64,000 nucleotides of DNA from Falsiroseomonas stagni DSM 19981 (GTDB lineage: Bacteria > Pseudomonadota > Alphaproteobacteria > Acetobacterales > Acetobacteraceae), in the NCBI RefSeq assembly GCF_900114315.1, contig NZ_FOSQ01000001.1, positions 1,094,202-1,158,201 on the forward strand, given 5' to 3'. The notes beneath the pieces are model-generated. The model was not told the origin of the DNA, did no database searches, and saw only the letters and a program-made list of their open reading frames with translations. The position numbers and the translations under genes are program-made. Below, one piece after another: positions 42,031 to 59,714 of this stretch (within the stretch, counting starts at the first letter, position 1; every line of letters starts with the position of its first letter).

Positions 42031-43236
42031 ATGCACCTCCTCGACCCCCTGGCCCGCTTCCGCGCCTTCTCCCATCGCGTGGCCGCCCCGGACGCGCCCG
42101 CCCCCGGCCCGCTCCAGGGCGTGACGCTCGCCGTGAAGGGCAACATCCCCGTCGCCGGCCTGCCCTGGACGGAGGGCAGCGCCGTCTTCGCCACGCGCAT
42201 CGCCACTACGGATGCCGCCTGCGTCGCGCGCCTCAAGGCGGCCGGTGCCGTGGTGGTGGGCATGACGACGCTGTCGGAAATGGCGATGTATGCGCCGGAC
42301 AACGCCGCGGAACCGATGGGCCTCAATCCCTTCGATGTGACGCGCACCGCCGGCGGGTCCTCCACCGGCAGCGGGGTCGCCGTGGCGCTGGGCCAGGCCG
42401 TGCTCGGCCTCGGCACCGACAGCGGCGGGTCGGTGCGCAACCCGGCGCTGCATGGCGGCGTGGTCGGCTTCAAGCCGAGCCTGCACGCCTGGGACTATGG
42501 CGGCGTGACCCAGCCCGCGCCGAGCCTCGACACGCTCGGCCTGATCGCCCGCGATGTCGCCACCCTGGCGCGCGGCGCCGCCGTGCTGGGCACGCCGCCG
42601 GGCCGCGCGAGGCCCTGCCTCCTGGTCCCCACGCATCTGGTGAAGGCCAGCGCCGATGCCGCCACGCGCGCCCTCTTCGCCGCCGCGCTGGATCGCTGCC
42701 GCGAAGCCGGGATCGAGACCATCGAGGCCGAGATCCCGCTGTGGCGGGAAGCCGATGCCGCCTGCGGCGTGATCTCCCTGGCCGAGGGCGGCGCCTGGCT
42801 CGATCGCCTGCCGGCCGATGCGCCGATCGGCCCGCGCCTGGTCGCCCGCCGCGCGGCCCATCGCGCGCTGGACCCCGCCGCGGTGGCGGAGGCCCGCGCC
42901 ATCTGCGCCGCCTTCACCCAGGCCCTCCGGGACGCGCTGCGCGACGCCACCGCCATCGCCACGCCCGGCTGGCCCTTCGCCGCGCCCCCCATCGAGGCCG
43001 AGACGGTGGAGATGGACGGCACGCCCATCCCGCTCGACCCCGCGCGATCGATCTTCGTCCGCACCGCCAACGCCGCCGGCGCCCCCGCCATCACCCTCCC
43101 CGCCGGGCTCTACCCGCGGGAGCGCGTGCCCTTCGGCCTCCACCTGCTGGCCGCCCCCGGGGCGGATGCCGCGCTGCTGGCGCTCGCGGCCCAGGTGGAG
43201 GCCGCGCTGCCCCCCGCGCCTATGCCGCCCGTGTGA
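42031..43236 (+). CDS. Amidase signature family amidase
   Basis: 401 residues. The Ser-cisSer-Lys catalytic set is visible: Lys in TLAVKGNIPV near residue 36, the glycine/serine-rich GGSSTGSGVAVALG loop and GTDSGGSVRNPA. The motif is slightly atypical, with GGSSTGSG where GGSSGGSA is usual. It hydrolyses an amide or carbamoyl group; a role on urea-like or allophanate-like products of the neighbouring ring-opening enzyme is possible but inferred. The 3' end overlaps the convergent barbiturase-family gene by 17 nt. Confidence 0.88.
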   Translation: MHLLDPLARFRAFSHRVAAPDAPAPGPLQGVTLAVKGNIPVAGLPWTEGSAVFATRIATTDAACVARLKAAGAVVVGMTTLSEMAMYAPDNAAEPMGLNPFDVTRTAGGSSTGSGVAVALGQAVLGLGTDSGGSVRNPALHGGVVGFKPSLHAWDYGGVTQPAPSLDTLGLIARDVATLARGAAVLGTPPGRARPCLLVPTHLVKASADAATRALFAAALDRCREAGIETIEAEIPLWREADAACGVISLAEGGAWLDRLPADAPIGPRLVARRAAHRALDPAAVAEARAICAAFTQALRDALRDATAIATPGWPFAAPPIEAETVEMDGTPIPLDPARSIFVRTANAAGAPAITLPAGLYPRERVPFGLHLLAAPGADAALLALAAQVEAALPPAPMPPV

Positions 43237-44269
43237 TCATCGCGGCGAGGCCGCCGCCCGGCGGCGCCTGCTGTTCCGATCCGCCACTGATGAACACCCG
43301 CGTGGTGCCGAACAGGGCGCCGACCATGCCCGAGGCGACAGGCCGCATATGCTTGTCCGGGTCCAGCTCACTCTCGAACACCGTCGTGCGCCGCCCGCGC
43401 AGCGCGCCGCCGGGCCGGACGCCCACCTTCAGCAGCAGCGCCTCCGGCGCGCTCGTGGTGAACAGCCCCTCGCCATCGGGCTGAAGCCCCACGCGCCGCG
43501 CGAGGCGCATCAGCGCCGGCGCATCGATGATGTCAGCCAGCGGTTCCGTCGCCATCACCAGGTCACCGCCCGCACCGGGCACATTCGCCAGCAGGATCAC
43601 CTCGCAATGCGAGAGTTCGGTGCCGGAGAAGGCCATGACGCGCCGGCTGTGCAGTGACCCATCGCGCAGGATCGCCGCATCCGTCACGCGGTCCTCCGCG
43701 ACCTCCCCCAGCGCGATCCCGGCGCCGAGTGCCGCGACGGCGCGGGAGGTGGGCGTCGATCCCGCCCGCGCCGCGCGTTCCGGCGGCAGGGTGGCGAGGT
43801 GCCGCCGCGGCAGCACGGGGCTTTTCACCAGCACCAGCGCCACCTGCTCGGCCGTGGCACCCGCATCCGCCATGGCGCGGCGCACGGCCTCCGCCACCGC
43901 CAGCGCATGCCCGCGCCCGCCATACTCCTCCACCGGGATCGGCGCCGTCGCCGCGACGCCGAGTGCGAGGCGCGCCGGCCCCGCCGGATCGCGCGCCGTC
44001 TCCATCTCCACGATCAGCGTGCCATGCGGCGTGATCACGCCCTCGCACCCCGTGGAGAAGATCAGCGTCGCCTCCCGTCCCCCCAGCGCCGCCTGCGTCG
44101 CGGCGATGGCGAGGTCGCGGGAGAAGTCGTTCAGTGTCGCCGTCCCCTCCGTCTTGCCCAGCACGGCGATCCGCCGCAGGCGCCCCGGCGGCAATGCGGC
44201 CAGCGCCCCGGCCAGGCCCCGCGCATCGCCGGGGCCCTCCATGTCGTAGTGACGCAACAGGACCGTCAT
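43220..44269 (-). CDS. Ring-opening amidohydrolase, barbiturase / cyanuric acid hydrolase family
   Basis: 349 residues. It belongs to the small AtzD/TrzD/barbiturase family, which hydrolyses cyanuric acid or barbituric acid rings with Ser-Lys dyads. Matching segments are KTEGTATLNDFSRDLA, IFSTGCEGVITPHGT, LVKSPVLP, MAFSGTELSHCEVILLAN and the C-terminal GGSEQQAPPGGGLAAMI. Three internal repeats are expected for the fold. ATG 44269 gives family length and follows the phosphoribosyltransferase stop by 1 nt. In the oxidative pyrimidine route barbiturase forms ureidomalonate; the adjacent M20 hydrolase fits a ureidomalonase role, making barbiturate more likely than cyanurate (inference). Confidence 0.9.
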   Translation of the reverse strand: MTVLLRHYDMEGPGDARGLAGALAALPPGRLRRIAVLGKTEGTATLNDFSRDLAIAATQAALGGREATLIFSTGCEGVITPHGTLIVEMETARDPAGPARLALGVAATAPIPVEEYGGRGHALAVAEAVRRAMADAGATAEQVALVLVKSPVLPRRHLATLPPERAARAGSTPTSRAVAALGAGIALGEVAEDRVTDAAILRDGSLHSRRVMAFSGTELSHCEVILLANVPGAGGDLVMATEPLADIIDAPALMRLARRVGLQPDGEGLFTTSAPEALLLKVGVRPGGALRGRRTTVFESELDPDKHMRPVASGMVGALFGTTRVFISGGSEQQAPPGGGLAAMITRAA

Positions 44270-44270
44270 G

Positions 44271-44945
44271 TCATTCCTTCCAGTCAGGCGCGGCGATGCC
44301 GCCATGCGCCGCCGACCAGGCGACGGGATCGGCGAGGTAGCGGCGAAGCTCCGCCAGATCCGCCGCCGGCAGCGCGCCGCGCGATTCCGCTTCCCGCACC
44401 ACATCGTTCCAATCCGCCAGCGCGAAGAGTCCGGCGCCGGCATCCGTCACCACGCGATCGAAGATGCCCCATTTGAACAGCACGAAGATGCGCGCCACCT
44501 CCATCCCCGCGCGTTCCAGCGCGCGGCAATAGGCGCCCTTGCTGCGCCCGTCGGTCGTCACGTCGCTGACCAGCAGCACGCGAGACCCCGGCCGCAGCGC
44601 GCCTTCGATATGCGCATCCGCGCCGAAGCCCTGCGCGCGGCGCCTGACAACGGCGAAGGGCTGATGAAAACGCTCCGCCAGCATGGCGCCGAGGGCGATG
44701 CCGCCCTGTTCCGTCGCCGCCACCGCATCGAAGCCGGCATGGCCGACCTCCGCCAGGATGCGCGCCTCCGCCCCTTCCAGCAGCGCGCGCCGCGCCAGCG
44801 GGAATGACAGCGCGCGCGGGATATCGAGATAGACCGGCGCCGCCCAGCCGGAGGACAGCATGAAGGGCCGGTCCGGCCGCAGCAGGATCGCCCGCGTATC
44901 CAGCAGCGCCTGCGCCGTGCGCCGCGCGATCGCGTCCCGTTCCAT
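44271..44945 (-). CDS. Orotate phosphoribosyltransferase-like protein
   Basis: A 224-residue type I phosphoribosyltransferase. FMLSSGWAAPVYLDIPRAL matches the N-terminal substrate region of OPRTs (typically FxLxSGxxSPxYxD). EQGGIALGAMLAERF follows, and the PRPP-binding motif is VLLVSDVTTDGRSK near 124-137. Normally PyrE makes OMP from orotate in UMP biosynthesis. Here it is sandwiched between an M20 hydrolase and barbiturase, so a catabolic, salvage or ligand-sensing use is possible. I cannot tell whether this is the cell's main PyrE. Confidence 0.82.
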   Translation of the reverse strand: MERDAIARRTAQALLDTRAILLRPDRPFMLSSGWAAPVYLDIPRALSFPLARRALLEGAEARILAEVGHAGFDAVAATEQGGIALGAMLAERFHQPFAVVRRRAQGFGADAHIEGALRPGSRVLLVSDVTTDGRSKGAYCRALERAGMEVARIFVLFKWGIFDRVVTDAGAGLFALADWNDVVREAESRGALPAADLAELRRYLADPVAWSAAHGGIAAPDWKE

Positions 44946-44965
44946 GTTACCGTCCCATCGCTCCG

Positions 44966-46255
44966 CTAACGCCCCACCGCTTCCGCGCCCGTCAGCAACA
45001 CCGCCTGCAATACCGCCGCCCCCTTGAGGAAATCGTTGAAGTCCATCGCCTCGCGCGGGTTGTGGCTGCCATGGTCGTTGCGCACGAAGACCATGGCGGA
45101 AGGCACGCCCGCATTGGCGAAGATCGCGGCATCATGCCCCGCGCCGCTCGCCAGCACCTCATGCGGCATCCCCCCGGACTCGCACAGCCGCCGCGCCAGC
45201 GCCAGCAGCCGCCCATCCATCACCGCGGGCGGGGTCCGCACCGGCAGGCCGAGGTCGATCCGCACGCGACGCTCCCGCGCGATCTCCAGCGCCTCGGCCT
45301 CCGCCAGCGCCTGGAAATCCTTCAGCGTCCGCTCGCTCTCCGACCGGTATTCCAGCGTGAAGCGCGCCTCCCCGGGCACGCGAGTCATCGCATGCTGCTT
45401 CGGATCCGTGGTGAGGATGCCGAAGGTCATCACCAGATCCTCGCCGCGTTCCAGCGCGTTGCGCCAGGTGGAGTCGAGCCGCATGGCGAAATCCGCCGTC
45501 GCCAGCACGGCATCCCGCCGCAGCCAGCGCGGCACCGCGCCGGAATGCGCGGCCTCTCCCACCGCCTTGGCATGGGGGTGGCGATGGTTGCCGCGGATGC
45601 CGGAGACGAGGCCGACGGGCACGCCCCGCGCCACCATCACCGGCCCCTGTTCGATATGCAGTTCCACGAAGTGTGACAGCGCGGTGGGATCGACCAGCCG
45701 GGTGCCCGCTGCGACGGAAGCCACATCCGCCCCCTCCCGCGCCATGGCCACGCGCAGGGTCAGGGAGGGGTCCTGCAGGCAGGGCAGGTCCATCCAGGCG
45801 GGATCGAACAGGCCGAACAGGGCGGAGGAGCCGAGATAGGGCCGGCCATACCAGGCGCTTTCCTCCCCCCGCATCACGAATAGCACCAGGCTGCGCGCCC
45901 GTGGCCCCGCGCGTTGCGCGCCCAGCAGCGCCAGCAGCCCCGCGATGACGCCCGCCGCGCCATCGAAATTGCCGCCCTGCGGCACGCTGTCGAGGTGCGA
46001 TCCGCAGGCCGCCGCCGGCAGGGACGGGTCCGTGCCGTCCAGCGTGACGATCAGGTTCGCCGCCGCATCCCAGTCGCAGCGCAGCCCGGCCGCGCGCGCG
46101 ATCGCCTCCACCCGCCGCATCGCCGCGGTCTCCCCGGCGCCATAGGTCTCCCGCGTGATGCCGGTGCCGTCGAAATGCGAATCCCGCAGCGCATCGAACA
46201 GCCCGCGCGCCATGATGGCGAGGTCGGGCGCGATGGCGGGCAGGGGCGTGTCCAT
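44966..46255 (-). CDS. M20-family amidohydrolase (N-carbamoyl amino acid hydrolase / allantoate amidohydrolase-like)
   Basis: 429 residues. The dinuclear metal site is recognisable: His/Asp in CGSHLDSVPQGGNFDGAAGV, Glu pair in MRGEESAWYG, His in ELHIEQGPV and the terminal SGAGHDAAIFA. A dimerisation domain occupies about 210-325 (GNHRHPHAKAVGEAAHSGAVP). The family cleaves ureido groups from carbamoylated acids and includes ureidomalonase-type activity in the oxidative pyrimidine pathway. ATG 46255 gives family length. First gene of the minus arm; divergent from the ornithine-cyclodeaminase-like gene. Confidence 0.88.
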   Translation of the reverse strand: MDTPLPAIAPDLAIMARGLFDALRDSHFDGTGITRETYGAGETAAMRRVEAIARAAGLRCDWDAAANLIVTLDGTDPSLPAAACGSHLDSVPQGGNFDGAAGVIAGLLALLGAQRAGPRARSLVLFVMRGEESAWYGRPYLGSSALFGLFDPAWMDLPCLQDPSLTLRVAMAREGADVASVAAGTRLVDPTALSHFVELHIEQGPVMVARGVPVGLVSGIRGNHRHPHAKAVGEAAHSGAVPRWLRRDAVLATADFAMRLDSTWRNALERGEDLVMTFGILTTDPKQHAMTRVPGEARFTLEYRSESERTLKDFQALAEAEALEIARERRVRIDLGLPVRTPPAVMDGRLLALARRLCESGGMPHEVLASGAGHDAAIFANAGVPSAMVFVRNDHGSHNPREAMDFNDFLKGAAVLQAVLLTGAEAVGR

Positions 46256-46298
46256 CGGGGGATGCTGGCGCGGCAGGCCGATCTGGGCAAGAACAGGG

Positions 46299-46314
46299 GG
46301 CGCCTCTTGGCGCC
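46299..46314. promoter_or_regulatory. Inverted repeat in the divergent promoter region of the N-heterocycle cluster
   Basis: GGCGCC (46299-46304), a TCTT spacer and GGCGCC (46309-46314) form a small dyad midway in the 106-bp spacer between the M20 gene (-) and the ornithine-cyclodeaminase-like gene (+). It could be an operator or leader hairpin. GC-rich words of this size arise easily here, so support is weak. Confidence 0.25.
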
Positions 46315-46361
46315 GCCGCCCTGGCGACCCACCATCACAGCCACACCGAACCGGGCGCTCC

Positions 46362-47396
46362 ATGGACAACGACGAGTTCCTCATCCTCCGCAGCGGCGAA
46401 GCCAATGGCCTCGTCACGCCGCAGGAAGCGCTGGATGCCATCGAGGATGCCTGGCGGGATTACGGCGCCCATCGCCAGGTGCTGTCGAACCCGCCCGCCC
46501 TGGGCATGAAGGGACCAGGTGCGACCTTCAAGGTGAAGGGCGCCGTCCTGCCCGGCGCGAAGCTCGCGGGTTTCCGCCTGATCGCGGATGCGCGGGACGC
46601 GGCACGGGACTGGGCGTGGCTGGCGGATGGCACCACGGGCCGGCCGCTGGCGATGATGGACGAGTACTGGCTGCATTGCCTGCGCACGGCGGCCACCGGC
46701 GCGCTGGCGGCGAAGCTGCTGGCCCGCCCGGGCGCCACGCGCGCCGCGCTGATCGGCGCCGGGCGCATCGCGGCCCACCTGCCGGCCTGCCTCGCCGCCG
46801 CGCTTCCCGGCATCACGGACCTCCATGTCGCGGCGCGCCGGGCGGAGGCGGTGGCGGAATTCGTGGCCAAGGCGCCCACGGAGCTAACGCTGAAACTCCA
46901 CGCCGCGCCCTCCATCGCGGAAGCCGTGCGCGATGCCGACATCGTCATCACCATCACCGCCGCGACCGAGACCTTCCTCGACGCCTCCATGGTCAAGCCC
47001 GGCGCGACGGTGATCGGCCTCGGCGATGTGGAACTGCATGCGGACCTGCTGGGCTGGGCGAACCGCTTCGTGGTGGATGACCTCGTCTTCGCGCTGACCA
47101 TCGGCAATGTCGGCGCCTGGATCGACAGCGGCGCCTGGACGGCGGAGGCGATCACCGCGCGGCTGGCCGCCGATGTGGGGGAGATCGTCGGCGGCACGAA
47201 GCCCGGCCGTGTGGATGACAGCGACAACATCGTCGCCATCATCCAGGGCATGGCGATCGGCGACCTGGCGCTGGCGGCGCTGGCCTGGCGCAAGGCGCGC
47301 CTCCGTCGCCTCGGCATCCGGGTCAATCTGGGGGAGCCCGCGAACCCGCATCTGCGCGGCCCGACGCCGCGGCGGAACCGCGCCATCCTCCGCTGA
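46362..47396 (+). CDS. Ornithine cyclodeaminase / mu-crystallin family protein
   Basis: 344 residues. An N-terminal oligomerisation/substrate part (TPQEALDAIEDAWRDYG; GPGATFKVKGAVLPGAKLAGFRL) is followed by a Rossmann domain with ALIGAGRIAAHLPACLAAALP and DIVITITAATETFLDASMVKPG. The family includes ornithine cyclodeaminase, alanine dehydrogenase and ketimine reductases that use NAD(P). The exact reaction is unknown; an imine or amino acid released from a ring-opening step is a reasonable substrate class. First gene of the plus-strand operon. Confidence 0.87.
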   Translation: MDNDEFLILRSGEANGLVTPQEALDAIEDAWRDYGAHRQVLSNPPALGMKGPGATFKVKGAVLPGAKLAGFRLIADARDAARDWAWLADGTTGRPLAMMDEYWLHCLRTAATGALAAKLLARPGATRAALIGAGRIAAHLPACLAAALPGITDLHVAARRAEAVAEFVAKAPTELTLKLHAAPSIAEAVRDADIVITITAATETFLDASMVKPGATVIGLGDVELHADLLGWANRFVVDDLVFALTIGNVGAWIDSGAWTAEAITARLAADVGEIVGGTKPGRVDDSDNIVAIIQGMAIGDLALAALAWRKARLRRLGIRVNLGEPANPHLRGPTPRRNRAILR

Positions 47397-47454
47397 GGGT
47401 TGACTTCGCCGGGCGGCGCGCGACCATCCGGGCCTTGAACCAGCAGGGCCTGGC

Positions 47455-48267
47455 ATGGACCTGGCACCCTTCCCGGTGGCCGAACGCGACGCGGTGGTGA
47501 TCGAGAGTGCCCCGGTGGGGCGCCGCTACCATCGCCTGCGCCTGGATGCGCCGGACCTCTCCGCGCGCGGCCGCCCCGGGCAGTTCTTCCACCTGCTCTG
47601 CCGCGATGGCGGCGGCAACGGCCCCTATCTGCGGCGCCCCATGAGCATCTGGCGCTGCGGGGCGGAGGAGCCGCTCGGCTTTCTCTTCCATGTGAAGGGC
47701 AGGGGCACCGCGGCGCTGGCGGCGCTGCGCGCGGGGGATCGGCTTTCCGTGGTCGGCCCGCTCGGCCAGGGTTTCTCCCTGCATCCGTCCTGGCGGCGCA
47801 TCCTGATCCTGGCGCGCGGCGTGGGCCTGGCGACGCTGGCGCCGCTGACGGATGCGGCGGCGCGGCTCGGCATCGCCGTCGATGCCGTGCTCTCCGCCCG
47901 CGATCCCGCCGACCTGATGGCGGATGAATTCGCCGGCGCGTCGGGCGCGCTGGTCACGCCGGTCTTCGATGCCGATGGCAGCAGCGATCCCGCGGCGGTG
48001 GAGGCGCTGCTGCGCGCCCGCTTCGAGGCCGCGCGGCCGGATGCCGTCTTCACCTGCGGATCGAACCGTCTGTTCCTGCTGCTGCAACGGCTTTCGGCGG
48101 AATACGCCATCCCCGGCCAGGTGGCGCTGGAACAGCAGATGGGCTGCGGGCTTGGCATGTGCTTCTGCTGCGTCCGGCCGATCCGCGCGCCGGATGGCGG
48201 CACCGTCAATCTCCGCGTCTGCGCGGAAGGCCCGGTCTTCGATCTCCAGGCGGCGCTGGGATGGTAG
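47455..48267 (+). CDS. Dihydroorotate dehydrogenase electron transfer subunit-like (PyrK-like)
   Basis: A 270-residue ferredoxin-reductase fold. An FAD-binding beta-barrel has RPGQFFHLLCR and YLRRPMSIWR (RxxS flavin motif). An NAD domain carries ILILARGVGLATLAPL, though the usual GGxG is ARGVG. The C-terminal [2Fe-2S] cluster is complete: cysteines of CGLGMCFCC plus the distal Cys in LRVCAEGPVFD. In type 1B enzymes this subunit passes electrons between NAD and PyrD. The stop overlaps the next gene's ATG. Confidence 0.88.
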   Translation: MDLAPFPVAERDAVVIESAPVGRRYHRLRLDAPDLSARGRPGQFFHLLCRDGGGNGPYLRRPMSIWRCGAEEPLGFLFHVKGRGTAALAALRAGDRLSVVGPLGQGFSLHPSWRRILILARGVGLATLAPLTDAAARLGIAVDAVLSARDPADLMADEFAGASGALVTPVFDADGSSDPAAVEALLRARFEAARPDAVFTCGSNRLFLLLQRLSAEYAIPGQVALEQQMGCGLGMCFCCVRPIRAPDGGTVNLRVCAEGPVFDLQAALGW

Positions 48268-49190
48268 ACCTCACCACCCGCATCGGCGCGGTCACGCTGG
48301 CCAACCCGGTCATGCCGGCATCCGGCACCTTCGGCCCCGAACTCGCGCAGGTCTTCGACCTCGGGCTGCTGGGCGCGCTGGTGACGAAATCCGTTACGCC
48401 GGAACCCCGCTCCGGCAATCCCCTGCCACGGCTCTGCGAGACGGAGGCGGGAATCCTCAATTCCATCGGCATCCCCGGCAAGGGCCTCGATCATTTCATC
48501 GCGCACGCCATCCCCGAATGGCGCCGCTTCCGCCCGCCGCTGGTCGTCTCCCTCTCCGCCGGCACCAATGCCGCCTTCGCCGAGGCCGCCGCGCGCCTGG
48601 CGGATACCCCCGGCATCGCCGCGATCGAGGCCAACATCTCCTGCCCCAATCTGGAGGAGGATGGCCGCGCCTTCGCGATGTTTCCCGAATCAGCCGCCGC
48701 CGCCATCGCCGCCATGCGCGCGCGCTGCGCCCTGCCGATCTGGGCCAAGCTCTCCCCCAATACCGGCGACATCGCCGCGGTGGCGCGGGCGGCGGAGGAG
48801 GCGGGCGCGGATGCGATCGTCGTCGCCAACACCATCCTCGGCCTCGCCATCGATATCGAGAAGGCCACGCCCAAGCTCGGCGCCGGCATGGGCGGCTTTT
48901 CCGGCCCTGCCTTCAAGCCCATCGCGCTGCGCCTCACCTGGCAATGCGCCCAGGCCGTCCGCATCCCCGTCATCGGCGTCGGCGGCATCGCGACGGCGGA
49001 GGATGCGGTGGAATTCATGATGGCCGGCGCCACCGCGGTGCAGGTTGGCACCGCCAGCTTCATCAGCCCGACGGCCCTGGTGCAGGTGATCGACGGGCTG
49101 CGGGATTTCTGCACCCGCCGCGGTTTCGCCCGCAGCGCGGACCTCACCGGCCTGGCGCTGCCGGGAAGCGGGCGCCTCGCCGCCGAATAG
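48261..49190 (+). CDS. Dihydroorotate dehydrogenase-like catalytic subunit, class 1B type
   Basis: A 309-residue FMN TIM barrel. The opening VDLTTRIGAVTLANPVMPAS is typical of class 1 PyrD. The general base is the cysteine of ANISCPN, a class 1 feature (class 2 membrane enzymes use serine). Phosphate/FMN-binding segments are GVGGIATAEDAVEFMMAG and AVQVGTASF. ATG 48261 overlaps the PyrK-like stop by 7 nt, implying a stoichiometric complex. Most alphaproteobacteria make pyrimidines with class 2 PyrD, so this pair may work on orotate or a related pyrimidine catabolically (inference). Confidence 0.88.
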   Translation: MVDLTTRIGAVTLANPVMPASGTFGPELAQVFDLGLLGALVTKSVTPEPRSGNPLPRLCETEAGILNSIGIPGKGLDHFIAHAIPEWRRFRPPLVVSLSAGTNAAFAEAAARLADTPGIAAIEANISCPNLEEDGRAFAMFPESAAAAIAAMRARCALPIWAKLSPNTGDIAAVARAAEEAGADAIVVANTILGLAIDIEKATPKLGAGMGGFSGPAFKPIALRLTWQCAQAVRIPVIGVGGIATAEDAVEFMMAGATAVQVGTASFISPTALVQVIDGLRDFCTRRGFARSADLTGLALPGSGRLAAE

Positions 49191-49196
49191 GGCGGG

Positions 49197-49227
49197 TTGA
49201 CAGGGCACCCCCCTCTGCCTTGATAAC
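49197..49227 (+). promoter_or_regulatory. Candidate internal promoter before the Rieske oxygenase gene
   Basis: A perfect TTGACA (49197-49202) is followed by GATAAC (49222-49227) after a long 19-bp spacer. It lies within the 63-bp gap between the PyrD-like and oxygenase genes. AAGGAA then serves as ribosome binding site. It could let the oxygenase segment be expressed separately. Confidence 0.35.
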
Positions 49228-49253
49228 GCTTAGTCCTCGAAGGAATAACGCCC

Positions 49254-50540
49254 ATGCTGCGCCAGGAGCAGAACGAGCTCGTCACCCGCACCGGCCCCGG
49301 CACGCCCATGGGCCAGCTCTTCCGCTCCTACTGGATCCCCGCGCTGCTGGCCGAGGAACTGCCGGAAGACGGCTGCCCGCCCGTCCGCATCAAGCTGCTG
49401 TCGGAGCGCCTGCTGGCGGTGCGGGACAGTGAGGGCCGCTACGGCCTGATCGACGAATTCTGCGCCCATCGCGGCGTCTCGCTCTGGTTCGGCCGGAACG
49501 AGGATGGCGGCATCCGCTGCCCCTATCACGGCTGGAAATACGACGTGACCGGGCAATGCGTGGAGGTCCCGTCGGAGCCCGCCGAGAACGGCTTCTGCCA
49601 GAAGATCAAGCTGACCGGCTACAAGCTGGTGAAGATCGGCGACATCCTCTGGGCCTATATGGGGCCGGCGGAGAGCGAGCCGCCGCTGCCGGAATGGGAA
49701 TTCGCGAAAGTCGCCCCCGCCCAGACCTTCACCAGCAAGCGGCTGCAGGAATGCAACTGGTTGCAGGCGATGGAAGGCGGCATCGATTCCTCCCACGTCT
49801 CCTGGCTGCATCGCGGCGCGCTGAATTCCGACCCCCTCTTCAAGGGCGCCAAGGGCAACCAGTATAACCTCAAGGACGCGAAGCCGGTCTTCGAGGTCGT
49901 GGAAGCCCCGGGCGGCCTCTACATCGGCGCAAGGCGGAATGCAGAAGATGGACAATACTACTGGCGCATCACGCCCTGGGTGATGCCGAGCTTCACCATG
50001 GTGCCGCCGCGCGGCGACCACCCCGTGCACGGCCATTTCTGGATTCCCATCGATGATGAGAATTGCTGGGCCTGGTCCTTCGACTACCACCCGACCCGCG
50101 CGCTGACGGACCATGAACGCCAGGCGATGCTGGATGGCCACGGCATCCACGTCACCTACGTCCCCGGCACCTACCGCCCGGCGGCCAACAAGGACAACGA
50201 CTACCTCATGGACAGGGAGGCGCAGAAACTGGGGAAAACCTATTCCGGCGTCGCCGGCATCGCCATGCAGGATGCGTCGCTCCAGGAAAGCATGGGCCCC
50301 ATCGTCGACCGCACGAAGGAGAATCTGGTCTCCACCGACAACGGCATCATCATGGCCCGCCACCGCCTGATGCGCGCGGCGAAGGCGCTGGCGGAAAAGG
50401 GCGTGCTGCCGCCGGGGCGCGATGCGGCCCACCAGCGCGTGCGCTCCGCCGCCGTCATCCTGCCGCCCGACCAGGCGTTCAAGGATGCGGCGGCGGAGGA
50501 TCTGACGGTGCGGGAAGGCGTGAAGCAGTCCTCCGTCTGA
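49254..50540 (+). CDS. Rieske non-heme iron oxygenase, phthalate 4,5-dioxygenase-like alpha subunit
   Basis: 428 residues. The Rieske [2Fe-2S] motif is EFCAHRGVSLWFG through IRCPYHGWKYD (about 69-97). The mononuclear iron ligands are the two histidines of GIDSSHVSWLHRG (about 178-190), with a further acidic ligand expected in the C-terminal part (QESMGPIVDRTKE region). Length and lack of a beta subunit fit the phthalate dioxygenase clade (alpha homo-oligomers), which attack aromatic and heteroaromatic acids. Reductase and Rieske ferredoxin genes follow in the operon, giving a three-component system. Substrate unknown. Confidence 0.9.
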   Translation: MLRQEQNELVTRTGPGTPMGQLFRSYWIPALLAEELPEDGCPPVRIKLLSERLLAVRDSEGRYGLIDEFCAHRGVSLWFGRNEDGGIRCPYHGWKYDVTGQCVEVPSEPAENGFCQKIKLTGYKLVKIGDILWAYMGPAESEPPLPEWEFAKVAPAQTFTSKRLQECNWLQAMEGGIDSSHVSWLHRGALNSDPLFKGAKGNQYNLKDAKPVFEVVEAPGGLYIGARRNAEDGQYYWRITPWVMPSFTMVPPRGDHPVHGHFWIPIDDENCWAWSFDYHPTRALTDHERQAMLDGHGIHVTYVPGTYRPAANKDNDYLMDREAQKLGKTYSGVAGIAMQDASLQESMGPIVDRTKENLVSTDNGIIMARHRLMRAAKALAEKGVLPPGRDAAHQRVRSAAVILPPDQAFKDAAAEDLTVREGVKQSSV

Positions 50541-51016
50541 TGGAATCGCAATCGGCCCGCGCGACGACGGCGGCGGAATCCCGCTTCCGGATCGCCAACC
50601 CCAACTCCCTGCCGCGCACGACGGCGATCGTCCCGCTCGATTCCGCCGCCGCGGCGACGCTCGCGGAACTGCGCGGCGGCCCCTGGCAGCGCGCCATCTT
50701 CGTGGAACTCGACCAGGGCGGCGACTGGATCGCGCAGCTTCCCGGCCGCACGCGCGCCCTGGTCGCGGCGATCACGGAAGCCAGCCTGGTCCTGCTGGTC
50801 GCCACCGCCGGCGCCGATGCCCGCGCGGCCGCCGTGGTGGCGGAAGCCGCGCAGGCGCAGGGCCGCATGATCGCCGCCGTGGTGCTGGACAGCGGGGATG
50901 CCGATCCCGCGGCCCTTGAGCGCAGCCTGGCCGCGCTGCGTCCCCATGCCGGGATGCTCGTGCTGGCCGATGGCACGGATTACGTCGCCGCCCTGCTGGA
51001 GGCGCTGCGCGCGTGA
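50540..51016 (+). CDS. Unrecognised 158-residue protein coupled to the Rieske oxygenase
   Basis: No family recognised. Residues 1-25 are polar; about 26-158 form alternating strands and helices (RTTAIVPLD, RAIFVELDQGG, ASLVLLVATAG, MIAAVVLDSGD, HAGMLVLADG), a Rossmann-like alpha/beta layout without a clear nucleotide motif. There is no signal peptide, cysteine cluster or metal motif. Its ATG overlaps the oxygenase stop (TGATG), and its stop overlaps the reductase GTG (GTGA), so it is translated in step with both. An accessory or assembly role for the oxygenase, or a regulatory subunit, is inferred from position only. Confidence 0.75.
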   Translation: MESQSARATTAAESRFRIANPNSLPRTTAIVPLDSAAAATLAELRGGPWQRAIFVELDQGGDWIAQLPGRTRALVAAITEASLVLLVATAGADARAAAVVAEAAQAQGRMIAAVVLDSGDADPAALERSLAALRPHAGMLVLADGTDYVAALLEALRA

Positions 51017-52224
51017 CGCGGCATGTCGTCATCATCGGCGGCGGCCAGGCCGGCGGCCGCTTCGCCGAGGCGCTCCGCAAGGGCGGCAGCGACGCGCGCA
51101 TCACGATGCTCGCGGAAGAACCACACGCTCCCTATGAACGCCCGCCGCTGTCGAAGGATGTGCTCTCCGGCAAGGCGGCGCCCGACACCACGCGCCTCCC
51201 CGTGGACTGGGCCGCGCTCGGCATCGACATCCTCGAAGGCGTGCGCGCCGAATCCATCGACCGCGGCGCGAAGCGCGTGCAGCCCGCCGGCGGTGGCGCC
51301 CCCATCCCCTACGACACACTCGTGCTGGCAACGGGTGCCCGTCCGCGCCGCCTGGCCGCGCTGACGGATGCGGACCTGCCGGTCTTCGCGCTGCGCAGCC
51401 TGGACGATGCCGCCGCGCTGCATGCCATCCTCACCCCCGGCCGCCGCATCCTGCTGATCGGCGGTGGCGTCATCGGGCTGGAAGTCGCGGCCACCGCCGC
51501 CGGCCTCGGCGCCCATCCCGTGGTTGTGGAGATGGCGCCCCGCCTGATGCCCCGGGGCTGCCCGCCCTTGATGGCGGACCGCCTGTTGGCGCTGCACCGC
51601 GCCCGCGGGGTGGAAGTCCATCTCGGCACCGGCGTCATCGCCGTGGACTGGGCCGGCGCCGGCATCATCGCGACGCTGGGCAATGGCGAACGGATCGAGG
51701 CCGACGGCATCGTGCTCGGCATCGGCGCCGCGCCCGATGATGGCCTGGCTGCCGCCGCCGGGCTTCGCACCCGGGACGGCATCCTGGTCGATGGCCATGC
51801 GCGCAGCCTGGATAATCCGGACGTGCTCGCCATCGGCGACGTCGCCCGCCATCCCCTGCCGCGCTTCGGCGTGACGCTGCGCCAGGAAAGCTGGCGCCAT
51901 GCGGAAGCCCATGCCCGCCACGCCGCCGCCGCGCTGCTGGACCCGTCGCTGCCGGACTATGACGATGTGCCCGGCTTCTGGTCCGACCAGCACGGCACGC
52001 GCCTGCTGGTGGAGGGCCTGCCGCAGGAGGGCCAGGAAATCCTCCGCCCCGCCGCCACCGAATCCACCTGGCACATCGCCGGGGATGGCCGCCTGGTCGG
52101 CGCCGCGACGCTCGGCGACAGCAAGGCCATGGCCGTCGCGCGGCGCCTCATCGCCGCCAGCGCCCGCCCCGACCCCGCCCGCCTGGCCGACCCCGCCAGC
52201 GACCTTCGCGCCCTGCTACGCTGA
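51013..52224 (+). CDS. FAD-dependent ferredoxin reductase-type oxidoreductase
   Basis: 403 residues starting at GTG 51013 in a GTGA overlap. The FAD motif is VVIIGGGQAGGRFAEAL. The family motif YERPPLSKDVLSG near 37-49 is typical of Rieske/cytochrome P450 ferredoxin reductases (PdR/BphA4 type). ATGARPRRL follows, the NAD motif is [15 protein letters not shown], and the second FAD contact is NPDVLAIGDVARHP. The C-terminal reductase domain has YDDVPGFWSDQHGTRLLVEG. It transfers electrons from NAD(P)H to the Rieske ferredoxin encoded downstream. Confidence 0.92.
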   Translation: MTRHVVIIGGGQAGGRFAEALRKGGSDARITMLAEEPHAPYERPPLSKDVLSGKAAPDTTRLPVDWAALGIDILEGVRAESIDRGAKRVQPAGGGAPIPYDTLVLATGARPRRLAALTDADLPVFALRSLDDAAALHAILTPGRRILLIGGGVIGLEVAATAAGLGAHPVVVEMAPRLMPRGCPPLMADRLLALHRARGVEVHLGTGVIAVDWAGAGIIATLGNGERIEADGIVLGIGAAPDDGLAAAAGLRTRDGILVDGHARSLDNPDVLAIGDVARHPLPRFGVTLRQESWRHAEAHARHAAAALLDPSLPDYDDVPGFWSDQHGTRLLVEGLPQEGQEILRPAATESTWHIAGDGRLVGAATLGDSKAMAVARRLIAASARPDPARLADPASDLRALLR

Positions 52225-52234
52225 CATGGCCAGA

Positions 52235-52256
52235 CCGCGCCCCAAGCAGGGCGCGG
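52235..52256 (+). promoter_or_regulatory. Hairpin upstream of the Bug gene in the Rieske operon
   Basis: CCGCGCCC (52235-52242) pairs perfectly with GGGCGCGG (52249-52256) around a 6-nt loop, 22 bp before the Bug GTG start. No T run follows. As an internal mRNA hairpin it could stabilise the downstream receptor message or cause partial termination after the reductase. Confidence 0.4.
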
Positions 52257-52278
52257 CGGCCCCGAGGAGAAACGTCCC

Positions 52279-53250
52279 GTGCCCCTGATCCGCCGCCGTG
52301 CCCTGCTCACCCTTCCGCTCGCCACCGCCGCCATCCCGGCGCGCGCGCAGGATGCCTGGCCCAACCGCCCCATCCGCATCACCGCCCCCTTCGCGCCGGG
52401 CGGCAGCGCGGACACGTTGGGCCGCCTGGTGGCGCAGGAACTCCAGACCGCGCTCGGCCAGTCCGTGGTGGTGGAGAACCGCCCCGGCGCCGGCGGTGTC
52501 CTCGGCTCCCTGGCCGTCGCGCGCGCCGCGCCGGATGGCTACAGCTTCGTCATCTCCGGCATCGCGAGCCATGTCGTGGCGCCCGCCATCAACAGCGCCG
52601 CTGGCTTCGATCCGATCAAGGATTTCACCCACATCGCCTTTCTCGGCGGCCCGCCCACGGTCTTCATCGTCAACAACAACATCCCGGCGCGGAACCTGGC
52701 GGAATTCGTGGCGCTGGCCCGCGGCGGCCAGCGCTTCGCCTTCGGGTCGCCCGGCGCGGGCACCCATGGCCACCTCTTCGGCATCGCCTTCATGAATGCC
52801 GGGCGGTTCGAGATGGACCACATCCCCTATCGCGGCGCCGGTGCGGCGATGGGCGACATCATCGGCGGCAGCGTCCCGGCGGGCTCCATCACCCTCTCCT
52901 CCGCCGCCGGCGCCATCCGCGGTGGCCAGGTCCGCGCGCTCGCCTTGACCACCGCGACGCGCGCCCGCGCCTTCCCGGACCTGCCGACCTTCACCGAACA
53001 GGGTTTCCCGGACCTCGCCGCCATGACCTGGTTCGGCCTCTCCGGCCCCGCGGGCCTGCCCGCGCCCATCGTCGATCGCCTGAACCGGGAGGTGGTGCGC
53101 GCGATGGCGCTGCCCCGTATCCGCGACAGGCTGGAAGCCGATGCGACGGAGGCTGTATCCATGACCGCCGCCGAATACACCCGCTTCATCGAAACCGAGA
53201 CGGCGCGCTGGGCCCCCATAGCCCGCGCCGCCGGCGTCCGCGCCGAATAG
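52279..53250 (+). CDS. Bug/TctC-family substrate-binding protein of the Rieske operon
   Basis: 323 residues starting at GTG with GAGGAGA 9 nt upstream. A signal peptide ending AIPARA precedes PNRPIRITAPFAPGGSADTL, VVVENRPGAGGVLGSLAVAR and DHIPYRGAGAAMGDIIGG. Aromatic-acid catabolic operons often carry such a receptor (TphC in terephthalate clusters is the known case), so it probably binds the cluster's substrate. It sits between the reductase and Rieske ferredoxin genes, 13 bp before the latter. Confidence 0.93.
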   Translation: MPLIRRRALLTLPLATAAIPARAQDAWPNRPIRITAPFAPGGSADTLGRLVAQELQTALGQSVVVENRPGAGGVLGSLAVARAAPDGYSFVISGIASHVVAPAINSAAGFDPIKDFTHIAFLGGPPTVFIVNNNIPARNLAEFVALARGGQRFAFGSPGAGTHGHLFGIAFMNAGRFEMDHIPYRGAGAAMGDIIGGSVPAGSITLSSAAGAIRGGQVRALALTTATRARAFPDLPTFTEQGFPDLAAMTWFGLSGPAGLPAPIVDRLNREVVRAMALPRIRDRLEADATEAVSMTAAEYTRFIETETARWAPIARAAGVRAE

Positions 53251-53263
53251 GAAAGCCCTGGCC

Positions 53264-53590
53264 ATGCCGCTCCTGCCGCTCATCGCCACCACCGCCATCG
53301 CCGAGGGAGAGGGCCAGCGCGTCGACACGCCCGAAGGCGCCTTCGCCGTCTTCAACCTGGGCGGCGAGTTCTTCGTCCTCGACAACACCTGCACCCACGG
53401 CCCCGGCAACCTCGGCGACGGCTTCATCGAGAATGAGGAAGTCGAATGCGACTTCCACCAGGGGCGCTTCTCCATCCGCAACGGCGCCGCGACGGCCGCC
53501 CCCTGCATCGATCCCGTCCGCGTCTGGGACGTGGTGATCCAGGACGGGCAGATCTGCATCGACCCCAAGGCCGGGCACTACGCGGTATGA
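53264..53590 (+). CDS. Rieske [2Fe-2S] ferredoxin
   Basis: 108 residues. The cluster ligands are C43/H45 in NTCTHGPGNL and Cys/His in VECDFHQGRFS about 17 residues later, the standard CxH...CxxH spacing. There is no N-terminal signal or membrane anchor, so it is a soluble electron carrier between the reductase and the oxygenase. It overlaps the PdxA-like gene by 4 nt (ATGA). Confidence 0.92.
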   Translation: MPLLPLIATTAIAEGEGQRVDTPEGAFAVFNLGGEFFVLDNTCTHGPGNLGDGFIENEEVECDFHQGRFSIRNGAATAAPCIDPVRVWDVVIQDGQICIDPKAGHYAV

Positions 53591-54567
53591 CACTCCCGGT
53601 TCTCGCGATCGCGCTGGGCGACCCCGCTGGCATCGGCCCCGAACTGGCGCTGAAGGCCGCGCTGCATCCGCGCACGCGCGACCTCTGCCGCCCGATCCTG
53701 GTCGGTGATCCCGGCGTCATCGCGCATCACGCCGCCACCGCCGGCATCACCGCCCGCCTGGTCGAACACGCCAGCGCGGACCACGCGGAAGCCGCGCCCG
53801 ACACGGTCGATGTCCTGCCCCGCCAGCACTTCGCGCCCGGTGAATTCACCCTCGGCAGCGTCACCGCCCAGAACGGCCGCGCCTCCCTCGACAGTGCAAG
53901 CGCCGCCATCGCCGCCGCCCGCGCCGGCCAGGTCCATGCCGTGCTCGCGGCCCCCATGAACCAGACGGCCATCGCCGCCGCCGGCATCGCCTTCGACGGC
54001 TACCCCACCTTCGTCGCGCGCGAATGCGGCATGGCGGAGGAAGACGTCTTCCTCATGCTCTGCTTCGACACCACGCGCATCGTCCACATCACCCTGCACG
54101 TCCCCGTCGCCCGCGCCCTGCAACTGCTGACGCAGGATCGCATCACCGCCGCCATCCTCGCCGCCGACACCGCCCTCAAGCGCCTCGGCATCCCAGCACC
54201 CCGTATCGCCGTCGGCGGCCTCAACCCCCATGCCGGCGAAGGCGGGTTGTTCGGCAGCGAAGACGACAGCATCACCACCCCCGCCATCGCCGCCGCCCGT
54301 GCCGCCGGCGCCACCGTGGACGGCCCCTTCGGCGCCGACACGATGTTCCACAAATCGGGCTACGACGCCTTCACCGTCATGCTGCACGACCAGGGGCACA
54401 TCGCCGCGAAAATGGTCGCCCCCCACCGCACCGCCGGCCTCACCATCGGCGCCCCCGTCCTGTTCTCCTCCGTCGCCCACGGCTCCGGCCACGACATCGC
54501 CGGCCGCGGCCAGGCGAACCCGACCGCCATGATCGAAGCGGTGGCGCGGCTGTGCGGGGCGGGGTGA
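53587..54567 (+). CDS. PdxA-like dehydrogenase (4-hydroxythreonine-4-phosphate / cis-dihydrodiol dehydrogenase family)
   Basis: 326 residues. IALGDPAGIGPELALKA is the PdxA opening. Metal-ligand histidines are expected in FDTTRIVHITLHVPV, FGADTMFHKSGYDAF and MLHDQGHIAAKM; GGLNPHAGEGGLFGSED is conserved. PdxA makes pyridoxine precursors, but in terephthalate clusters a homologue (TphB) dehydrogenates and decarboxylates the cis-dihydrodiol made by a Rieske dioxygenase. Location immediately after the Rieske ferredoxin favours the dihydrodiol role. Last gene of the plus-strand operon. Confidence 0.88.
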   Translation: MTLPVLAIALGDPAGIGPELALKAALHPRTRDLCRPILVGDPGVIAHHAATAGITARLVEHASADHAEAAPDTVDVLPRQHFAPGEFTLGSVTAQNGRASLDSASAAIAAARAGQVHAVLAAPMNQTAIAAAGIAFDGYPTFVARECGMAEEDVFLMLCFDTTRIVHITLHVPVARALQLLTQDRITAAILAADTALKRLGIPAPRIAVGGLNPHAGEGGLFGSEDDSITTPAIAAARAAGATVDGPFGADTMFHKSGYDAFTVMLHDQGHIAAKMVAPHRTAGLTIGAPVLFSSVAHGSGHDIAGRGQANPTAMIEAVARLCGAG

Positions 54568-54887: not shown

Positions 54888-55808
54888 ATGGCGATCGATT
54901 TCCTCGGGCTGGAGGCGTTCCTGTCGATTGCGGAGCGGGGTTCGTTCCGCAAGGCGGCGGCGCATCTCAACCTGTCGCAGACGGCCTTGTCCCATCGCAT
55001 CCGCAAGTTCGAGGAGGGGTTGGGCCTCAAGCTGCTGGCGCGCACCACCAGGCAGGTGACCTTGACGCCGGCGGGGCTGGACCTGGCGTCCCGCGCCCGC
55101 GCCCCGGTGGAGGCCTTGAATGCGGCGCTGGGCGAGTTGCGCGCCGGCGCCGGTTCCGCCCAGCAATCCGTGACGATCGGCTGCCTGCCGACGATCGCGG
55201 TGCATCACGTGCCGCGCCTGCTGGCCGATTTCTCCGCGGCCCATCCCGCCGTCACGGTGAAGGTCTTCGACAATTCCGCCAGCGAGATCGCGGAGCGGGT
55301 GGCGAGGGGGGAGGCCGAGTTCGGCATCACCATCGTCTCCGCCAATCGCTGGGACCTCGATATCGTGCCGCTGATGACGGAGGCTTTCGTCCTCGCCTGT
55401 CCCGCCGCGCATCCCTTCGCCCTGCGCCCGCACCTGGCCTGGTCGGACCTGGAGGGGCAGCCCCTGGTCCGCGTGGCGCCGCATACCGGCAACCGGGCCC
55501 TGCTGGATGAGGCGCTGGGCGCAAAGCGGGATGCGATGGATTGGCGGTATGAGGTCCAGCACCTGGCCACCGCGATCAGTATGGTGGAGGCTGGAATTGC
55601 CTTGGCCGTGGTGCCCCGCCTGGCGGTGGATGCCGCCGGCACCGCGGGGGTGGTGGCGGTGCCGTTGCGGGACCCGGCGGTGGTGCGGCGCCTCGGCGTG
55701 GTCTCCCGCCGCGGCGTGCCGCTGTCGCCGGCGGCGGAGGCGCTGCTGGCCCTGCTCCGCCAGCGCTTCAGGCCGGCCGCGCCGGCGCGCGCCCGGAAAA
55801 CCGCCTGA
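54888..55808 (+). CDS. LysR-family transcriptional regulator
   Basis: 306 residues. The N-terminal winged helix is FLGLEAFLSIAERGSFRKAA through LNLSQTALSHRIRKFEEGLG (about 5-48). The effector domain (about 95-300) is the periplasmic-binding-like fold with TIGCLPTIAVHHVPRLLADF and a C-terminal basic tail. It lies after the Rieske operon and ahead of the GalB/LigI operon on the same strand, so it may control either or both in response to an aromatic or heterocyclic acid. ATG 54888 gives the canonical LysR start. Confidence 0.92.
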   Translation: MAIDFLGLEAFLSIAERGSFRKAAAHLNLSQTALSHRIRKFEEGLGLKLLARTTRQVTLTPAGLDLASRARAPVEALNAALGELRAGAGSAQQSVTIGCLPTIAVHHVPRLLADFSAAHPAVTVKVFDNSASEIAERVARGEAEFGITIVSANRWDLDIVPLMTEAFVLACPAAHPFALRPHLAWSDLEGQPLVRVAPHTGNRALLDEALGAKRDAMDWRYEVQHLATAISMVEAGIALAVVPRLAVDAAGTAGVVAVPLRDPAVVRRLGVVSRRGVPLSPAAEALLALLRQRFRPAAPARARKTA

Positions 55809-55910
55809 CCCCATTCATGCACACCCCCGCATAATCCCACCGTTCTTTCCATTTGTCGCATGACGGGCCAGGCGCCATATGGCCGCCAATCGGACACCCA
55901 GGGGAAGCGC

Positions 55911-56627
55911 ATGCCCAAGACCGGATTTGTCGTCACCGCCCATCCCGGCGATTTCGTCTGGCGTGCGGGCGGGGCCATTGCCCTGCACGCGAAGCGCGGC
56001 TGGCGCGTGAAGATCCTCTGCCTGTCCTTCGGGGAGCGCGGCGAGAGCCAGTTCGCCTGGAAGGACCCCAACGCCACCCTCGAATCCGTCAAGGCCGCCC
56101 GCAAGGCGGAGGCCGAGGCCGCGGCCGCCGTGCTGGGCGCGGAGATCGAGTTCATGGATGCCGGCGACTACCCGCTGGTGACGACGCCGGCGATGATGGA
56201 CCGCGCCATCGACCTGTTCCGCGAACTGAACCCCGCCTGGGTCCTCACGCATTCCCTCAACGACCCATACAACCTGGACCACCCGGAGGCGACGCGCTTC
56301 GCCCAGGCCGCGCGCATCGTGGCGCAGGCGATGGGCCACAAGCCCGGCCCAGGCTACAGCTACGCCGCGCCCCCCGTCTTCCTGTTCGAGCCCCACCAGC
56401 CCGAGCAGTGCAACTTCCAGCCCAACGTCATCCTCAACATCGATGACGCCTGGGAGACCAAGCGCCGTGCCTTCGAATGCCTGCCCGCGCAGAAGCACCT
56501 CTGGGCCTATTACGAGCGGGTGGCGCTGAACCGCGGCATGCAGGGCGGCCGCAACTCCGGCAAGGCGATGGTGTATGGCGAGGCCTATCAGCGCCTCTTC
56601 CCGATGATCATGGACGAGCTGGCGTAA
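55911..56627 (+). CDS. galB: PIG-L family protein, probable 4-oxalomesaconate hydratase
   Basis: 238 residues. It resembles Pseudomonas GalB along its length: VVTAHPGDFVWRAGGAIALHA, CLSFGERGESQFAWK, HSLNDPYNLDHPEA, FEPHQPEQCNF and YYERVALNRG. GalB hydrates 4-oxalomesaconate to 4-carboxy-4-hydroxy-2-oxoadipate in the gallate / protocatechuate 4,5-cleavage pathway. The PIG-L AHPDDE motif is AHPGDF, a change in line with GalB-type divergence from deacetylases. ATG 55911 has GGGGAAG about 5 nt upstream. Together with the LigI-like lactonase at the operon's end it covers two consecutive steps. A true deacetylase is less likely. Confidence 0.82.
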   Translation: MPKTGFVVTAHPGDFVWRAGGAIALHAKRGWRVKILCLSFGERGESQFAWKDPNATLESVKAARKAEAEAAAAVLGAEIEFMDAGDYPLVTTPAMMDRAIDLFRELNPAWVLTHSLNDPYNLDHPEATRFAQAARIVAQAMGHKPGPGYSYAAPPVFLFEPHQPEQCNFQPNVILNIDDAWETKRRAFECLPAQKHLWAYYERVALNRGMQGGRNSGKAMVYGEAYQRLFPMIMDELA

Positions 56628-56632
56628 CCTCC

Positions 56633-57472: not shown

Positions 57473-57473
57473 G

Positions 57474-58688: not shown

Positions 58689-58710
58689 AACAAACAACGG
58701 GAGAAACACC

Positions 58711-59685: not shown

Positions 59686-59714
59686 GCCACCAGAACGAAC
59701 AGGGAGAAGCGACA

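Follow-up and report, generated by a model that had tools for sequence, protein, structure and literature searches.

A gene cluster of Falsiroseomonas stagni DSM 19981 (Acetobacteraceae; genome 6.38 Mb) is probably a composite catabolic island, in which three functional modules are arranged around a single divergent spacer of 106 bp between the genes of an M20-family hydrolase and an OCD-family protein. The cluster lies in the window, i.e. the whole stretch of 64,000 nucleotides analysed here (contig NZ_FOSQ01000001.1; G000:C22:1094202-1158201). Module A, consisting of PyrK, PyrD, the M20 enzyme and an orotate phosphoribosyltransferase (OPRT)-like protein, is predicted to use orotate. Module B, built around a Rieske oxygenase (RO), is predicted to act on a carboxylated ring, and module C, comprising an AtzD/barbiturase-family protein without Ser226, the OCD-family protein and an amidase, may open a cyclic imide or ureide. 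A first-pass annotation of the same DNA had described two divergent arms with mostly overlapping or close-set genes, and this layout was found to be accurate. All genes it named are intact open reading frames with the stated family in Pfam and NCBIfam (except for the Bug label of a putative receptor), and the plus arm contains four overlaps (PyrK/PyrD, 7 bases; RO/158-aa protein, 1; 158-aa protein/reductase, 4; ferredoxin/PdxA, 4), the other gaps as far as PdxA being 13–63 bp. The annotation had omitted the amidase gene adjoining the AtzD gene, which recurs beside the same AtzD subfamily.

The same gene order, from PdxA through a thiamine pyrophosphate (TPP)-type gene, is found in Falsiroseomonas algicola (L047), an Acetobacteraceae metagenome-assembled genome (MAG; L048) and Roseomonas ponticola (L049) at 82–97% identity, with RO among the most conserved cluster proteins (96–97%). 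Since order and identity are kept in three close relatives, the cluster is not a chance assembly.

Joining and parting of the modules

Congeners that have partial gene sets point to a composite. F. selenitidurans (L121) and genome G231 (L178) share the frame M20-OPRT / OCD-PyrK-PyrD-ferredoxin-LysR and onward, and neither island frame contains RO, the 158-aa protein, the reductase, PdxA or AtzD. The ferredoxin remaining in these frames groups with the ferredoxins of RO modules (support 0.85; the trees for the ferredoxin and OCD genes have supports of 0.85 and 1.0), and these supports suggest that RO genes were lost in both genomes, the direction being unproven. The stretches read from G152, G262 and G287 have an OPRT-M20 / PyrK-PyrD arrangement and none of the remaining cluster genes; the contig of G287 stops just past PyrD. 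G287 carries the orotate core (L181), the AtzD gene (L041) and the RO module (L198) on three contigs, with module B in the identical six-gene order away from the orotate core. The modules therefore join and part within one genus.

Linkage of the modules is also rare in the wider family. A catabolic PyrD (match at 1e-70) occurs in 24 of the 299 family genomes, and 23 of these loci were viewed (our own, L121, L123 and 20 more) in stretches of at most 20 kb, several of which end at contig edges; solely the window has both an AtzD gene and an RO of at least 60% identity alongside. Conversely, PyrK, PyrD, M20, OPRT and AtzD were all absent from the 16 RO stretches of 15 other family genomes, likewise at most 20 kb long and several of them ending at contig edges. 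Five family genomes encode the AtzD subfamily, and the orotate module shares its contig in the window genome alone. In a sample of the class the subfamily was found in our own genome, in G405 (a 2.5 Mb Rhodospirillaceae MAG, the genome of L052), which has all three modules far apart, and in G354, where the only PyrD match is 39% identical. A second linked case is Bosea sp. BK604, where about 5 kb separate an AtzD-OCD pair from an OPRT gene and about 8 kb separate it from PyrK-PyrD-M20-OPRT; the 31 kb read contain no match to RO.

Several observations weigh against this composite reading. First, all three stand together in the window clade, mostly tightly spaced and at the identities given above, which argues for a shared purpose. 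Secondly, some contigs of G287 and G270 are short, so that the modules may be linked there. Thirdly, the modules occur in the same genomes more often than expected, in tests that ignore relatedness and count RO at 65% identity or more: catabolic PyrD is present in 5/5 genomes with the AtzD subfamily versus 24/299 overall (p 2e-6; outside the genus 2/2, p 0.004), and in 7/17 RO genomes versus 24/299 (p 1e-4; outside the genus 5/15, p 0.001). Finally, within module A, no dihydroorotase match was found by Pfam and NCBIfam among the 20 window proteins scanned, and the OPRT-like protein lacks the loop lysine of the housekeeping copy. In the same tests RO was found in 3/5 AtzD-subfamily genomes versus 17/299 (p 0.0014; outside the genus 1/2, p 0.10). 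Thus, the proposal of the first-pass annotation that the two arms belong together has a mixed outcome: under the refuting condition that it set itself, linkage of the two halves proves rare beyond a single clade (1/23 PyrD loci, 0/16 RO stretches) and its single pathway is not shown, but co-occurrence at genome level exceeds expectation and Bosea adds a second AtzD-OCD/orotate case.

The predicted orotate module and the Rieske oxygenase module

Module A appears to be a widespread accessory module for orotate use, most likely reductive, a reading based on its gene set and on textbook knowledge. With NADH as reductant, PyrDK would convert orotate to dihydroorotate. The ring would then be opened to N-carbamoyl-L-aspartate by a dihydroorotase, either housekeeping PyrC or possibly the AtzD-type enzyme, and the M20 enzyme would release aspartate, ammonia and CO2 from the product. 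The score of the window PyrD exceeds the cut-off of the class 1 equivalog (Table 1), and the protein retains the motifs around the catalytic cysteine and the orotate site. The host also has a separate class 2, quinone-type PyrD (L055, 360 bits versus 200) and a separate housekeeping PyrE/OPRT (L059, 380 bits versus 245); the window copies are therefore accessory. The label OPRT-like given at first pass holds at the level of PF00156, but the protein falls short of the OPRT equivalog cut-off. Its loop reads RRRAQGFG, as in other window-type proteins (RKRAQGFG in L178), versus KKPKGFG in the housekeeping copy; among the OPRTs of other orotate modules the lysine is retained in some and lost in others. 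The window protein may thus be a weak or repurposed enzyme, with a presumptive role in module A.

PyrK adjoins PyrD in all 23 family loci viewed, and M20 is near PyrD in 22 of them, the single miss ending at a contig edge. Plasmid records searched at E 1e-50 gave 83 with a PyrD match and 85 with an M20 match, and in the eight annotated plasmid regions viewed PyrK-PyrD-M20 are consecutive in all eight, accompanied by OPRT in five and by a dihydroorotase in three, with none annotated in the other five. These regions (L060–L067, several with PyrC or OPRT) are from Roseomonas, Variovorax, Nitratireductor, P. putida, Klebsiella, Roseicitreum and Agrobacterium, and the operons are mostly near MFS or TRAP transporter genes; a hypothetical protein of about 105–110 residues follows the operon in six of the eight (L060, L062–L066). 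Klebsiella accounts for 53 of the 83 plasmid records with a PyrD match. In G405, PyrK-PyrD-M20-PyrC-OPRT are encoded in a row, with PyrC above its cut-off. Two MAGs (L269, L271) encode another type of PyrK-PyrD, whose orotate motifs are altered (QSIGLPGKG, NISCPT); no M20 match was present in the stretch.

Reductive degradation of orotate is known from Clostridium/Zymobacterium oroticum. The window cluster shares with it, and with the plasmid pyrK-pyrD-M20-(pyrC)-(OPRT) operons, neighbouring genes for PyrDK and a carbamoyl-amino-acid hydrolase and the orotate-site motifs, but differs in the lack of a recognised dihydroorotase, the altered OPRT-like loop, the divergent arms and the extra modules. 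Among the papers listed by a literature search, none dealt with a comparable gene cluster for orotate degradation. The cluster is conserved in the three relatives, and the link to pyrimidines drawn at first pass is upheld for this part of it, the PyrDK/M20/OPRT genes looking like orotate catabolism.

Module B would introduce two hydroxyl groups into an aromatic or heteroaromatic ring that bears a carboxylate, and then decarboxylate the resulting cis-diol oxidatively, in the manner of IphA/IphB or TphA/TphB; diol dehydrogenases of the TphB/IphB type are known from terephthalate and isophthalate degradation. The nearest solved structures to the RO are 9INA (477 bits) and then 7fhr (329 bits). 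The codes 9INA and 9IOY are given in PMC12445078, which reports isophthalate dioxygenase (IPDO) and names R234 and H257 as its carboxylate binders. With a numbering offset of 23, set by hand and fitting all ten named residues, both carboxylate binders are retained (R238 and H261 of the window RO), as are G172, V178 and I294, and there are five differences (T175S, I246V, F249R, F333I, L198N). For the PdxA-like enzyme, the 8zj3/8zhy group and TphB come closest. Module B has in common with the iph genes of Comamonas (iphA2CBA1) and with TphAB a Rieske oxygenase of the phthalate type that is close to IPDO, a gene for a receptor and a PdxA-like diol dehydrogenase. Those systems have a single reductase, whereas the window encodes an FAD reductase and a Rieske ferredoxin as well as the extra 158-aa protein, and F249R, F333I and L198N lie in the pocket.

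RO relatives of 79–81% identity are encoded on five rhizobial plasmids, each with a 158-aa-like gene; the two viewed have a ferredoxin gene and a reductase of a different type. More distant relatives (58–59%) are found in Rhodococcus and on Arthrobacter p2MP. Among the 16 RO stretches of the family, a 158-aa-like gene is present in ten and a PdxA-like gene in eight (L198 and seven further). The 158-aa protein has no match in Pfam or NCBIfam, and the idea that it is a Rieske beta subunit was dropped, as its model is Rossmann-like and the 50 matches listed do not include a Rieske beta subunit; the best structural matches of the model are weak and FtsZ-like (TM at most 0.5 in the top five). Two other candidates were set aside: an RO neighbour taken by eye for 4,5-dihydroxyphthalate decarboxylase gave a weak SsuA-type NCBIfam match alone, and for 2-hydroxypyridine dioxygenase (Hpo), considered as a possible nearest system in view of the 58–59% relatives, there was no usable paper.

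An alternative is that all modules serve orotate in one oxidative pathway, with PyrDK feeding or draining the orotate pool. The Rieske enzyme would convert orotate to its 5,6-cis-diol, whose C5 hydroxyl would be oxidised by the TphB-like enzyme, and the resulting beta-keto acid would lose CO2; the product, 5,6-dihydroxyuracil (5-hydroxybarbiturate, dialurate), would be opened by the AtzD-type enzyme, and M20 or the amidase would degrade the ureido acid. Such chemistry suits enzymes of the TphB/IphB type as known for terephthalate and isophthalate, and the C4-oxo and C6-carboxylate groups of orotate are mutually meta, like the groups held by the two retained IPDO residues. Moreover, the modules are linked in four genomes (the window and L047–L049), while in G287, G270 and G405 they share a genome but lie on different contigs or at a distance, and the 20 window proteins scanned include no recognisable ring-cleaving dioxygenase. 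On the other side, the 16 RO stretches of other family genomes, several of them cut by contig ends, are devoid of orotate-module and AtzD genes, F. selenitidurans has AtzD and orotate modules with no RO match at E 1e-90, and an RO of at least 65% identity is lacking in 17 of the 24 orotate-module genomes. A single pathway joining all genes is weakened by the separability of the modules in congeners; we retain it as an alternative that is quite unlikely. In its specific form, a new oxidative orotate route running through Rieske/TphB-type steps to 5-hydroxybarbiturate and opened by the Ser226-less AtzD subfamily, it is very unlikely. The composite island remains the preferred interpretation. A Rieske system or PyrDK pair that replaces a molybdenum dehydrogenase to feed a barbiturase, as suggested at first pass, was not supported.

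The Ser226-less AtzD subfamily

By its model scores the AtzD-type protein is a divergent member of the cyanuric acid hydrolase (CAH)/barbiturase family. It matches PF09663 far above the cut-off of 25 bits and the family model TIGR02714 at 166 versus 153, but it scores 228 bits against the CAH equivalog, whose cut-off is 360; the family assignment made at first pass thus stands, and the identification as a barbiturase does not, in view of the missing Ser226 and an Asp at AtzD position 321. In an alignment with 4NQ3 that has no gaps around the second serine, the position of Ser226 is occupied by Phe214. PMC4051656 reports the Ser226/Lys156 dyad as absolutely conserved in the family; in the window protein the dyad lysine is kept and the serine is replaced. 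To place this substitution, the best 120 of 430 proteins found with a subfamily profile, and hence chosen by likeness, were compared with 26 CAH-like proteins, from which L003 (K40, R52 and S79 lost) and L032 (Phe at 226, Asn at K156) were left out. Residue 226 is Phe in 112 of the 120, Val in four, Met in two and Tyr and Leu in one each, never Ser, and it is Ser in all 26 comparators. K40, R52, S79, K156, K285 and R314 are kept in all 120, S333 in 115 (Thr in five) and R188 in 90 (Lys in 30). L032 groups with the subfamily in a tree of 75 sequences (support 0.85). The genome has three further AtzD-family paralogues, among them L003 (G000:C22:686240-687316), from which several Lys, Ser and Arg residues of the active site have been lost.

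The signature of barbiturase in PMC3758960 is Asn195, His321, Lys325, Val345 and Ser/Ala346, that of CAH Arg195, Thr321, Arg325, Gly345 and Gly346. The window protein has Arg, Asp, Arg, Gly and Gly, and so agrees with CAH at four of five sites and lacks the barbiturase signature; Asp at 321, found in 119 of the 120, fits neither cyanurate nor barbiturate. Module C may accordingly open some other cyclic imide or ureide. It is most improbable that the protein is an ordinary barbiturase or CAH and the minus arm the known barbiturase-ureidomalonase route: family membership and the flanking amidase are consistent with it, but the residues at 226 and 321 speak against it, and residue 195, reported as Asn or Gln in barbiturase, is Arg in the window protein. 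The identity of the nucleophile is disputed between papers, Ser79/Ser85 or Ser226 (PMC4051656, PMC3758960). As Ser226 is absent in the subfamily, it cannot be the nucleophile if the subfamily is active; in the window protein, if active, the nucleophile must come from the Ser72/Lys39 or the Ser328/Lys281 dyad. Compared with AtzD/TrzD CAH and barbiturase (Toblerone fold), the protein shares the family, three Arg, three Lys and two of the three active-site Ser, and differs in Phe at Ser226, an FSTGCEG motif, Asp at 321 and the OCD partner gene.

The subfamily profile separates sharply, with five of the 299 family genomes at 358–569 bits and all other matches at 269 or below. An OCD gene lies within 2.1 kb of the AtzD-subfamily gene in all ten related loci measured, and at 6–132 bp in five of them; in L041 the AtzD gene touches the contig end, with no OCD in reach. 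The L040 locus of F. selenitidurans has a divergent AtzD-OCD pair about 132 bp apart, and in the window the M20-OPRT pair sits between AtzD and OCD. An amidase is beside or near the AtzD-subfamily gene in L040, L041, L042, L047–L049 and L261, and was not seen near it in L044, L052, L053 and L054. In L052 and L054 a EutA/arylmalonate-decarboxylase-like gene (L052:5329-6129, L054:11129-11875) lies between AtzD and OCD, with TRAP/TAXI-like transporter genes, named by eye, nearby; maleate isomerase was rejected for this gene, which is under both cut-offs. The Ser226-less subfamily with its recurring OCD partner is counted as new.

The association of AtzD-OCD with orotate genes raises the possibility that modules A and C form one orotate route, with B as a passenger. 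The AtzD-type enzyme would open orotate (to ureidofumarate) or dihydroorotate, M20 would decarbamoylate the product, and OCD would handle iminosuccinate or aspartate. The window clade and Bosea are distant lineages, and in both AtzD-OCD accompanies PyrK-PyrD-M20-OPRT. In addition, the orotate module is present in all five family genomes that encode the subfamily, no PyrC was found in the window cluster, and the OCD protein gives a weak match to the iminosuccinate reductase BhcD (81 bits, cut-off 500). Nevertheless, AtzD-OCD is away from the orotate module in stretches L040, L042, L044, L052, L054 and L261, the sole PyrD match in G354 is the distant one mentioned above, and PyrC is present in the orotate operon of G405. 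We regard such a joint route as unlikely and favour the composite island.

Layout, flanks and implications

The features of the cluster are listed in Table 1. The right flank beyond LysR is also syntenic in L112 and, apart from the lactonase-like gene, which has no match there, in L111; in L113 the right flank does not come after PdxA. Genes for LysR, PIG-L, a class III CoA-transferase, a receptor and a 4-sulfomuconolactone-hydrolase-like protein (window 54888-62514) accompany the orotate core in the RO-less congeners (L121, L178). In the left flank, the TPP-dependent enzyme (window 37406-39160) has a 66% relative on a Rhizobium plasmid (L006:27641-29284), about 12 kb from a 79% RO relative.

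Table 1. Genes and spacer of the cluster, with positions in the window and the matches on which the assignments rest
Feature	Position	Strand	Evidence
Amidase-signature hydrolase, part of the AtzD unit	42031..43236	+	PF01425
AtzD/barbiturase-family ring-opening amidohydrolase, Ser226-less subfamily (Phe214)	43220..44269	-	PF09663 233 bits; catalytic-column tables
OPRT-like protein, altered catalytic loop RRRAQGFG	44271..44945	-	PF00156; NF001729 211 bits vs cut-off 245
M20 carbamoylase/ureido-acid hydrolase, predicted N-carbamoyl-L-aspartate amidohydrolase	44966..46255	-	PF01546; TIGR01879 254 bits vs 204
Divergent spacer, 106 bp, presumed promoter region for both arms	46256..46361	.	
OCD/mu-crystallin-family protein, partner of the AtzD subfamily	46362..47396	+	PF02423 127 bits
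PyrK-like electron-transfer subunit	47455..48267	+	PF10418
Class 1B PyrD-like dihydroorotate dehydrogenase	48261..49190	+	NF005574 342 bits vs 269; nearest PDB 1ep1
RO alpha, isophthalate-dioxygenase-like	49254..50540	+	PF00355, PF19301; 9ina 477 bits
158-aa protein accompanying RO, function without assignment, predicted alpha/beta (Rossmann-like)	50540..51016	+	Model mean pLDDT 80
FAD ferredoxin reductase	51013..52224	+	PF07992, PF14759
Putative Bug/TTT-type periplasmic receptor (label by sequence appearance)	52279..53250	+	Relative at same place in L198, L199 modules
Rieske-type ferredoxin	53264..53590	+	PF00355
PdxA-like dehydrogenase near TphB (cis-diol dehydrogenase type)	53587..54567	+	PF04166; 8zj3/8zhy group 236 bits, 4aty TphB 230 bits
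LysR regulator, likely island regulator	54888..55808	+	PF03466, PF00126; syntenic in L111, L112, L121, L178

The orotate module is common and often plasmid-borne, and its recognition inside this cluster is counted as new. Should the three modules form a single pathway, the use of Rieske chemistry in this type of pyrimidine catabolism would be novel, and if the oxidative route were true, the Rieske/PdxA pair would act on a pyrimidine as TphAB acts on terephthalate. The AtzD subfamily departs from the sole rule reported as absolute for its family. Many of its members are named cyanuric acid amidohydrolase at source, which, as they lack Ser226, is likely a wrong annotation. Finally, the subfamily makes the question of which serine is the nucleophile directly testable.

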